From: Bacteroidota bacterium
GTDB taxonomy: Bacteria > Bacteroidota > Ignavibacteria > UBA10030 > UBA6906
NCBI GenBank assembly: GCA_030835135.1
Contig: JAUQWO010000051.1
Coordinates: forward strand, 62,001-126,000
Length of the DNA stretch: 64,000 bases
Direction: 5' to 3'
Under the pieces are notes generated by a model. It ran no database searches. It saw nothing but the letters and a program-made list of their open reading frames with translations, and had not been told where the DNA came from. The position numbers and the translations under genes are program-made. This document shows, piece by piece, positions 6,242 to 51,821 of this stretch (its first letter is position 1; each line of letters starts with the position of its first letter).

Positions 6242-6898
6242 ATGAAGACCATCGACTCGACGCTCGTTCACCGTGTCCTTCCGCCGGAACACGCCGGCGC
6301 GGGGCCGCATCCTGCTCTCATCTTTCTCCATGGCCGCGGTGCGGATGAAGAGGATCTGCTGGGGCTCACGTCCGCATTCGACGAACGGCTGTTCGTCATC
6401 AGCGTACGCGCGCCGTTCCCGTACGAATACGGCGGCTATACGTGGTACGATGCCGGCACGATCGGCGAACCGGATCGGGTGCGCTTTCCTGAAAGCTGCG
6501 ACCGGCTCTCCCGCTTCATCGCCGACGTGAAGGCGCGGTACGCGGTGGACCCGGACAAGGTCTTTCTCTTCGGGTTCAGCATGGGCTGCGTTATGTCCTT
6601 CGCGCAGGCGGTGAGCCATCCGGGTTCCGTGCGGGGCGTTGCGGCGAACAGCGGGTATGTGCCCGAAGGTCCGCACCTCACGTTCAAGTGGCAGGAACTG
6701 GCCGGCACCTCGTTCCACATCACGCACGGCATCCACGACCCGGTGATCCCGATAGCATTCGCACGCCATACCAGGTCGCTCTTCGAGCGCTCGAATGCGC
6801 CGTTCACGTACAAGGAATATCCGTCGGAGCACTACCTTGCGGAAGAGTGCATCGGGGACACCGCCGTGTGGCTCCGCGGCTTGATCGACGGACAGTAG
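6242..6898 (+). CDS. Small alpha/beta-hydrolase (phospholipase/carboxylesterase family)
   Basis: A 218-residue cytosolic alpha/beta hydrolase of the PF02230 type. The early HGRGADEEDLL segment is typical of this family's oxyanion region. The triad is Ser in GFSMG, Asp in HGIHDPVIP and His in SEHY. The start is the ATG 13 bases after the ferritin-like stop; a longer in-frame start at 6170 would run through the ferritin gene and lacks family similarity. No strong Shine-Dalgarno is seen, so translation may be coupled. The natural ester is not predictable. Confidence 0.88.
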   Translation: MKTIDSTLVHRVLPPEHAGAGPHPALIFLHGRGADEEDLLGLTSAFDERLFVISVRAPFPYEYGGYTWYDAGTIGEPDRVRFPESCDRLSRFIADVKARYAVDPDKVFLFGFSMGCVMSFAQAVSHPGSVRGVAANSGYVPEGPHLTFKWQELAGTSFHITHGIHDPVIPIAFARHTRSLFERSNAPFTYKEYPSEHYLAEECIGDTAVWLRGLIDGQ

Positions 6899-6910
6899 GT
6901 GGGAGGAGGA

Positions 6911-6990
6911 CCGGTGGGGGCCCTGCGGCGCGAAACCGCCGGGGGAAGCGCCTTCATCGGACAGGTTTCGTGACGCAGGGCCCCCACCGG
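6911..6990. repeat. Large inverted repeat (27-bp arms) between convergent genes
   Basis: Arms at 6911-6937 and 6964-6990 are complementary at 25 of 27 positions and enclose a 26-base loop. The outer arm is CCGGTGGGGGCCCTGCG and the inner end CGAAACC. The architecture (27-33 bp arms, 26-27 base loop, inner arm end GAAACC or GGAAACCC, loop with a GGAxGCGC...CTTC motif) resembles the element at 18714-18806 although the outer arms differ in sequence. It lies between the convergent esterase and malic enzyme genes, beside a conventional terminator. Confidence 0.75.
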
Positions 6991-7022
6991 CCCGACGTAC
7001 CGAGACCCCCGGAGAACAACAC

Positions 7023-7058
7023 AGCGGGGACCACACGTCGTGGCCCCCGCTTTCGTTT
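7023..7058. terminator. Bidirectional terminator between esterase and maeB
   Basis: AGCGGGG (7023-7029) pairs with CCCCGCT (7045-7051), and CCAC (7031-7034) with GTGG (7040-7043), around a 5-base loop. The stem is followed by TTCGTTT on the + strand. The same stem can serve malic enzyme transcripts arriving from the other strand. Confidence 0.7.
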
Positions 7059-7080
7059 GCCTCAAGCAGCGCACAGCAGG

Positions 7081-9342
7081 TTACTTCTTGATCTCCTGTG
7101 CATCCCGGACAGCCATGGCGGTGACGTTCACGATATCCGCCACTTCGTTCCCGGGGATCACCAGATACACCGGCTTCTTCATGCCCACGAGGATCGGTCC
7201 GACCAGCTCCGCGCCGCCGAGCTTGCCCAGCAGCTTGTAGGCGATGTTCGCCGACTCCAGGTTCGGGCACACCAGCACGTTCGCACTCCCCTTCAATGAG
7301 CTGAACGGATACAGCGACTCGAGGATGTCCGTCGAGACCGCCGTGTCCGCCATCATCTCACCGTCGATCATGAGATGCGGTGCCCGCTTCTTCACCAGGT
7401 CCGTCGCCTTCGCCATCTTCGCGGCCGAGGGGTGCTGCGTGCCGCCGAAGTTGCTGAACGACAGCATCGCGATGCGCGGATCGATATTGTAGCTCTGCAC
7501 CTTCTCCGCCACCAGGATCGCGATGTCGGCCAGCTGCTCCGCCGTCGGATCGAAGTTCACGGTGGCATCGGCGATGAACCGCACATCGTTCTTGAAGATC
7601 AGCATGTACATGCCGGCGATGGTCGAGATGCCGTCACGCGGTCGGATGATCTGCAGCGCCGGACGGATGGTACCCGGGTAGTTCTGCGTGAGGCCGGCCA
7701 CGAGGCCGTCCGCTGCCCCTTCGTTCACCATCATCATCCCGAACGGGATGGAGTGCTGCAGGGCGTCCTGCGCGTCGTTCCGCGTCATGCCCTTCCGCTT
7801 GCGCATATCGAAGTACTTCTGCACGTACACGTCGAACTGCGACGACGTCTTCGGGTCCACGATCTCCGCACCCGTCAGGTCCAGATCGAGCGCCTTGATC
7901 TTCCCCGTGATGATGTCTTTGTTGCCCAGCAGGATCGGCGTCGCGATCTCCTCATCCAGGATGATCTGGCTGGCGCGGAGGATCTTCTCCTCGACGCCTT
8001 CGGGGAACACGATGCGCTTCGGTGCTTCCTGCGCCTTGTGGATGAACACGCGCATGATCTCCTTGGAGCGGCCGAGGCGGCTCTCCAGGGAATCGCGGTA
8101 CTTGTCCAGGTCGGCGACCGGCCTGCGCGCCACGCCCGTTTCCATGGCGGCTTTGGCGACGGCCGGGGCCTCCCACAGAAGCACGCGCGGATCGAGCGGT
8201 TTGGGGATGATGTACTCCCGCCCGAACCGGATCTTCGCGCCGCCATAGGCCTTGATCACGGAATCCGGCACATCCTCTTTCGCAAGTTTGGCCAGCGCCT
8301 GCGCGGCCGCCATCTTCATCTCATCATTGATGGCCGATGCCATCACGTCCAGCGCGCCGCGGAAGATGAACGGGAACCCGAGCACATTGTTCACCTGGTT
8401 CGGATAATCCGAGCGGCCGGTGGCCATGAGGACATCGGTGCGGGCGGCGAATGCATCCTCCGGCATGATCTCCGGATCCGGATTGGCCATCGCGAAGATG
8501 ATCGGATCGCGGGCCATCGACTTCACCATGTCCTTGGTGACCACGCCCTTCACCGACACGCCGGCGAACACATCGGCGCCCTTCATCGCATCCGCGAGGG
8601 TCCGGGCGGAGGTCTCGATCGCAAAATACTCCTTGTAGGGATTCATCCCCTCCTTGCGGCCCTTGTACACCACCCCCTTCGTGTCGCAGAGAATGAGGTT
8701 CTCGCGCTTCACGCCGAGCGTGATATAGAACTTGGCGCAGGCGATGCCCGCGGCGCCGGCGCCGCTGAACACCACCTTCACCTGATCGATCTTCGTCCCG
8801 ACGATCTCGAGCGCGTTCAGCAGTCCCGCCCCGGAAATGATCGCGGTGCCATGCTGGTCGTCGTGGAAGACCGGGATGTTCATCATCCCCTTGAGCGTCT
8901 CCTCGATATGGAAACACTCGGGGGCCTTGATGTCCTCGAGGTTGATGCCGCCGAACGTCGGCTCGAGGGCCTTCACGATCCTGATGATCTCTTCCGGATC
9001 GTGCGTGTTGAGCTCGATGTCGAACACATCGATGTCTGCAAAGCGCTTGAAGAGCACGCCTTTGCCTTCCATGACCGGCTTGCCTGCCAGGGCACCGATG
9101 TCGCCGAGTCCGAGTACCGCGGTGCCGTTGCTGATGACCGCAACGAGGTTGCCCTTCGCCGTGTACTTGTAGGCATCTTCGGGATTCGCTTCGATCTCCC
9201 GGCAGGGTTCTGCAACGCCCGGGGTGTAGGCCAACGACAGGTCGCGCTGAGTCGCACAGGGTTTGCTCGAGATAACCTCGATCTTTCCTTTGCGGCCGAC
9301 GCTGTGGTAATCAAGCGCATCCTGCTTGCGGATCATGGCCAT
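7081..9342 (-). CDS. maeB: NADP-dependent malic enzyme / phosphotransacetylase fusion
   Basis: A 753-residue MaeB-type protein. Residues ~1-410 are the malic enzyme ([11 protein letters not shown], the [11 protein letters not shown] segment, the metal-binding region around IDVFDIE, and a nucleotide-binding GAGAAG motif). Residues ~430-753 are a phosphate acetyl/butyryltransferase domain, which in the MaeB group is usually regulatory (acetyl-CoA sensing) rather than catalytic. It oxidatively decarboxylates malate to pyruvate with production of NADPH. AAGGAG sits 8 bases before the ATG. It is monocistronic and faces genes on both flanks in the opposite orientation. A TATCTT on the minus strand (9456-9461) could be its -10 box, but no good -35 accompanies it. 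Confidence 0.95.
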
Positions 9343-18638: not shown

Positions 18639-18713
18639 AGCCGGTGTATGCGTTCCAATGGCGACACACGTCGTTCCACAGTATGCGTCGTCGCGGATAC
18701 CACACCGGTGGGG

Positions 18714-18806
18714 ACCCCGGGGGTATGCCCCTCCAGCGGAAACCCGGTGGCTGGATGCGCGTCTTCTTGGGTTCGGGTTTCCGCTGGAGGGGCATACCTC
18801 CGGGGT
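18714..18806. repeat. Large inverted repeat with 33-bp arms
   Basis: Arms 18714-18746 and 18774-18806 are complementary at 32 of 33 positions around a 27-base loop. The arm reads ACCCCGGGGGTATGCCCC followed by TCCAGCGGAAACCCG. A near-identical right arm occurs at 2841-2867. It occupies most of the gap between the URO-D and HEXXH genes, which holds no gene. No U-tract follows, so it is not an ordinary terminator. It resembles REP/MITE-type palindromes; no transposase is near. Confidence 0.85.
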
Positions 18807-18855
18807 CGATTGAGGCACCATTCGTTGTCGTGCTCTACTGTCAGCAGGAGAGGAC

Positions 18856-51776: not shown

Positions 51777-51821
51777 AAAAGGGCAAGGCAGCGGAGATCT
51801 CACCCGCGGCCTTGCCCTTTT
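51777..51821. terminator. Bidirectional terminator between pdxJ and the T9SS genes
   Basis: AAAAGGGCAAGG (51777-51788) pairs perfectly with CCTTGCCCTTTT (51810-51821), extended inside by GCGG/CCGC. Both strands end in a short T-run. Convergent genes lie on either side; the rest of 51747-51927 has no gene. Confidence 0.85.

Follow-up and report, generated by a model that had tools for sequence, protein, structure and literature searches.

Near position 6.9 kb of the DNA analysed here (the window, 64,000 nucleotides long, C17:62001–126000 in a 4.9-Mb genome of 88 contigs) lies an inverted repeat, element A, which a preliminary description had set beside a second one at 18.7 kb, element B. That description held the two to share a loop and to differ in outer arms whose changes compensate each other, and it reasoned that, if so, the fold would be under selection. 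The question raised by the locus is what kind of element keeps its arms complementary while their sequence changes.

Hairpins in the window

The arms described at 6.9 kb (6911–6937 and 6964–6990) were borne out, with 25 Watson–Crick pairs out of 27 around a loop of 26 nucleotides. The inverted repeat of element A reaches 6908–6993 on the forward strand, its left arm at 6908–6937 and its right arm at 6964–6993 (30 nt each, 90% complementary) enclosing the 26-nt loop at 6938–6963 (type 1, GGAAGCGCCTTC). Element B, at 18713–18807 on the same strand, consists of arms at 18713–18746 and 18774–18807 and a loop at 18747–18773 (type 2, GGCTGGATGCGCGTC). Scored at +1 for a match and −2 for a mismatch, the hairpins of A and B reached 21 and 31, respectively; no hairpin in 100 dinucleotide-preserving shuffles of the window scored above 15. 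The inverted repeat of element A is thus confirmed as real. The tag GGTGG, recognised from the sequence and from the tally of tags given below, stands to the left of both elements (6898–6902 and 18707–18711, forward strand). The motif GAAACC-N20-34-GGTTTC, a pattern picked after the elements had been seen, was found twice in the window, where 0.01 occurrences would be expected. A decayed copy with recognisable outer arms lies at 2761–2881 on the minus strand.

The neighbours of element A are an alpha/beta-hydrolase gene and, convergent with it, a malic enzyme–phosphotransacetylase gene, and a position between convergent genes would suit an intrinsic transcription terminator, a GC-rich hairpin with a T-run behind it. 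However, this function is very improbable: a T-run is missing from both sides of element A, element B stands between two genes of the same strand (one of the URO-D family, the other DUF3267), and the sole terminator-like site within 6800–7120 is a different one that follows the malic-enzyme gene (7051–7023, minus strand). A separate terminator-like hairpin of 18 bp (AAAAGGGCAAGGCAGCGG/CCGCGGCCTTGCCCTTTT) was seen in the window at 51777–51821. All copies of the element whose neighbours were examined are intergenic.

Copies in the host genome

Pattern and DNA searches of the genome revealed a copy of the A type at C51:42.9k and others of the B type on contigs C12 and C8, and a hairpin scan revealed a copy at the end of C17. 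About one third of the genome was scanned in this way (1.61 Mb when overlaps and the window are counted); a 784-kb part gave three hairpins with loops of at least 12 nt, none of which was judged to belong to the family, against one such hairpin in shuffles. A covariance model, R1, was then built from six copies. With 150 of 2313 first-look candidates scored, it pointed to nine places at E ≤ 0.004 and to four weaker ones in the same genome (E = 0.08–0.6). Four of the nine places are contig ends: the end of C17 and the start of C61 share 56 identical nucleotides, and the end of C35 and the start of C8 share 49. We read these four as two copies (E2 and E1), and the genome therefore holds about seven intact copies of this short family, namely A, B, C51, C12, C8, E1, and E2. 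Decayed or half copies were found at C12:163.3k (R1 E = 0.6) and C12:159.0k, besides the one at 2761–2881 of the window. The copy at C12:159.0k and a degenerate partner spotted by eye seem to enclose the intact C12 copy.

Among the five GAAACC...GGTTTC places of this genome, those on C38 and C45 are without long arms and were not counted as copies. The weak R1 matches C46, C74, C36, G011, and G003 (E = 0.07–0.19) were dismissed on sight. Several other repeats were seen on these contigs. A 41-bp tandem repeat (2.4 copies) starts right beside the C8 element (L039, 194–292), and the palindrome GAGTGGTACGCCGTACCACTC stands twice on the same contig with 43 nt in between (L040, 3581–3663). C45 carries a repeated perfect palindrome, GTAGGGGCGCAGCATGCTGCGCCCCTAC, a short repeat with GTAG/CTAC ends (L056, 1332–1415 and 1980–2040; L058, 5613–5660). 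Another hairpin of C45 (L136, 512–562) has arms AAGACCCGGAGA and a loop containing GGGAAGCGCAT, which resembles the type 1 loop; it is perhaps a distant member or a chance likeness.

Arms and loops compared between copies

The compensating arms held up in the covariance-model check: more copies exist, and the differences between their arms compensate. In the alignment of six copies, three of which (A, B, and the copy at the C17 end) were first found as hairpins so that pairing itself was partly sampled for, 14 of the 22 arm pairs carry changes in both partners, and 92.9% of the cells pair. Slid controls of the same alignment pair in at most 56.7% of cells. The observed pairing, double changes, and covariation score were each reached by 0 of 500 shuffles, and the number of pair types by 12 of 500. 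The copies E1 and E2 have an identical 27-nt loop and differ in two of 17 arm pairs, which are adjacent and both compensated. Between A and C51, the nine innermost pairs are shared and the loops agree at 24 of 26 bases; the 33 aligned pairs of these two copies comprise 23 that are the same, two double-changed with pairing kept, three whole-pair gaps, and five with a non-pair. On these counts, the compensation between A and C51 is real though imperfect.

The likeness of the 6.9-kb and 18.7-kb loops stood in part. Their direct match is weak, being equalled by 12 of 2000 shuffled loops, and it is the other copies that carry the likeness. The A loop scored 44 against the C51 loop and 28 against that of C12 in minus-strand reading, and the B loop matched those of C8 and E with scores of 36 and 29; in each comparison, none of 2000 shuffles did as well. 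No significant match was seen between the C51 and B loops (193 of 2000 shuffles as good). Type 1 thus comprises A, C51, and C12 (in minus-strand reading), and type 2 comprises B, C8, and E. The C12 copy has arms of the B type (18.7 kb), with 28 of 34 aligned pairs identical, together with a type 1 (6.9-kb) loop. By its sequence, this copy connects the two loop types, so that arms and loops appear to have been swapped between copies.

Selection on the fold does not follow from the compensating arms, in view of template switching, the swapped modules, the decayed copies, the weak direct match of the A and B loops, and the lack of a clear strand bias between G-T and A-C pairs in the arms. When template switching takes place within a hairpin, one arm is rewritten from the other, and multi-base compensating changes arise without selection; the process can both create and repair hairpins (as outlined in PMC8794818). 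Selection on the fold is unproven; such template switching could also keep the arms complementary. Whole-pair insertions between copies, adjacent double changes like the two compensated pairs of E1 and E2 beside an identical loop, and swapped modules would be the outcome expected of it. A further possibility, which we consider less likely than not, is that the arms owe their complementarity entirely to hairpin template switching and to gene conversion among the copies, without any selection for a fold. The mechanism is known (in outline, PMC8794818 and PMC8604942) and is compatible with the other readings considered here, but the near-invariant cores of the longer element described below require some constraint, and the present data are silent on the order of mutations. 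Arm complementarity is probably maintained by both the need to pair and template switching.

A longer element in the same genome

Starting from a hairpin at C12:213.5k, we identified a longer element, X, with nine copies, of which C12 carries two, C72 four, and C51, C60, and C65 one each. Two copies lie near genes that we take to be yidC, mnmE, and mnmG, and two more beyond a gene that we take to be mfd. The 20-nt cores of X have 0–2 differing positions between copies, and its apical segment is hypervariable. In the outer arms, nine of 28 pairs are double-changed and 88.9% of cells are paired, with the structure hand-drawn from one copy. The observed pairing was reached by none of 500 shuffles, the number of double-changed pairs by one, and the number of pair types by 32. 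The copies C72b, C72c, and C72d show no differences in both cores and the right arm (70 columns), 1–3 differing columns on the left, and 8–12 of 30 in the apical segment. C12a and C72a have a common apical module (5 of 30 positions differ), whereas their arms differ at 14 of 32 and at 12 of 31 positions. In its outer ends, tag, and plan, X is like the short family, but the two show little likeness when compared directly (E = 0.31 for E2 against C12:213.5k); on these features, X is a probable sister of the short family.

The interior of X folded no better than shuffles in nine of nine copies (z from 0.07 to 1.54), and a stable RNA in this part is therefore unsupported. Of the nine aligned copies (L155, L157–L164), eight are spanned by an open frame of the minus strand (GFSKFFD...GVHGVEKP). 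A coding reading of X was unsupported: the core is kept at all codon positions, and apical variability is 0.25, 0.40, and 0.44 by codon position. The X pattern had no matches in viral contigs. Four relatives gave matches with two mismatches that were without the X core or arms, and a backward control pattern also matched twice. To the left of 15534 in L029 (C12:213.5k), tandem GGGTTGAACGACGGACGGTG-like units reach the X copy C12a; the last unit coincides with its 5′ GGTGG tag, which hints at a target preference.

Tag and flanks of the elements

Of 16 copies, 15 have GGTG(G/A/C) or GGTTG at the left foot and one has it at the right foot; the motif occurs in 11.5% of random 24-mers of the window. 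This one-sided count is strong but post hoc: the motif was picked after the flanks had been seen, the windows were placed manually, and the loop and the tag served to orient C12. No target site duplication was found in the five copies checked, where the longest flank repeat was 3 nt.

The last result bears on whether the elements are MITEs of the type with terminal inverted repeats (TIRs), moved by the DDE transposase of an insertion sequence that has been lost or has escaped assembly. Inverted repeats do form the ends of the elements, the arms are long, the outer ends are alike across copies, and relatives are without the element. We nevertheless consider such an origin unlikely, as the five copies checked have no target duplication and as the arms are variable and the centre is conserved. 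A search of the incomplete 88-contig assembly with the arm pattern and up to three mismatches gave seven matches, all family copies, with no separate insertion sequence ends.

Searches in relatives and databases

The DNA of element A was found in none of the 59 other genomes searched, and the sole match of element B elsewhere, a weak one in G008, is not such a hairpin. With at most 52 candidates scored per genome, the R1 model gave no match at E ≤ 0.01 in any of the order's 97 other genomes; two marginal matches among 20 family relatives (E = 0.07–0.08) were dismissed on sight. In G001 and G002 (same genus) and in G016 (same family), the 420 nt that follow the malic-enzyme gene contain no such hairpin and hold a convergent esterase that we read as the one of the host locus. 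Downstream of the URO-D gene of G010 (73% identical), the DNA is different and without a B-like element, synteny being broken there. Judged by these comparisons, the family is present in the host genome only, among the genomes searched.

Pattern scans gave three matches in genome contigs and eight in viral contigs, all 11 of which were judged to be chance, without matching arms. The best R1 score among them was 17.4 bits (E = 0.055), and such scans may omit records near the host genome. The search for a Y1 transposase (PF01797) gave none in the 88 contigs of the host and was positive in five of 14 control genomes. No description of the element was found in the open-access literature, consulted mostly at the abstract level. 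Rfam gave no gathering-level match in the window or among the elements tested. The match of mir-2041 to B had an E value of 6.4e-11 but 55.7 bits against the 70 needed; this match and the others below gathering, mostly microRNA precursors, were taken as generic long hairpins.

Structured non-coding RNAs or RNA-level regulatory hairpins, in which the arms covary since the transcript must fold, would account for the covariation in both families, the directional tag, the near-invariant X cores, and the ratio of G-T to A-C arm pairs in the short family alone (11 vs 3, with the orientation of C12 partly set by its tag). We find this quite unlikely. Over both families together, the counts are 30 and 23 (p = 0.41), with no clear strand bias, and the X interior behaves like shuffled sequence in every copy. 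Besides the lack of an Rfam family at gathering, no sigma-70-like promoter was found within 6800–7120, copies have decayed, and relatives are without matches.

Discussion

REPINs, the doublets of REPs, are likewise intergenic palindromes of similar size with long hairpins, and their singlets are regarded as remnants. The present elements differ from them in the conserved centre and variable arms, the few copies, the GGTGG-like tag, and the Y1 transposase, which was not found. The copy number of REPs and REPINs is as a rule above 100 per genome (as outlined in PMC2817692), whereas we count about seven copies and nine of X. Of the traits of REPs and REPINs that have a RAYT, the intergenic long-hairpin palindrome is present here; the GTAG/CGTC tag and the high copy number are not, and a Y1-type transposase (RAYT) was not found in the 88 contigs. 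REPs tagged with GTAG/CGTC are likewise palindromes that carry an unpaired tag on one side, but they measure 20–40 bp, whereas the elements here measure about 86–140 nt and carry a GGTGG-like tag. The attC sites of integrons have core sites at the hairpin foot and go with a cassette array and IntI. Unlike in REPINs and TIR-type MITEs, the conserved part of our elements is the centre and not the ends. The enterobacterial units RU-1, RU-2, and RU-3 are MITE-like intergenic units of 103–168 bp with open frames (in outline, PMC2759123), and a bacterial stem-loop catalogue lists 92 repeat families, most of them intergenic with a common fold (in outline, PMC2267715). We liken our elements to both by description and not by sequence; swapped modules and a 5′ tag are absent from the summary of PMC2759123.

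We give about an even chance to the reading that element A belongs to a small, lineage-restricted family of non-autonomous mobile hairpins whose plan resembles that of REPINs or IS200. Dispersed copies, a conserved core, compensating arms, a one-sided tag, decayed copies, and occurrence in this genome alone among those searched are seen directly, while the mobility, the single-strand intermediate, and the mobilising enzyme are what we infer. A mobile folded strand would fit the dispersal, low copy number, and decay of the copies, their absence from sister species, the one-sided tag, and the missing target duplication. Such an element would have a 5′ GGTGG-type tag followed by a long stem that needs only to pair, and its conserved apical part would be recognised. 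It would most likely move in trans as a folded single strand, as has been proposed for REPINs (PMC3116915), insert without target duplication, and decay after landing. Against this count the lack of a Y1 transposase, the low copy number (about seven and nine of X), the post hoc tag, and the lack of an exact empty site.

It is rather improbable, though worth stating, that we are dealing with a modular single-strand element of a new type. The tag and the fixed core would then be recognised by a putative non-Y1 enzyme, the arms would be rewritten from each other in each cycle, and the apical segment of the long form, possibly a guide or specificity module, would be exchanged or diversified independently of the arms.

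If the element does move without a Y1 transposase, its mobiliser would be something not yet known. The family offers a case within one genome in which the arms drift yet stay complementary and the core is nearly frozen. It permits selection on the fold to be tested against hairpin template switching as the source of compensating changes in repeats.
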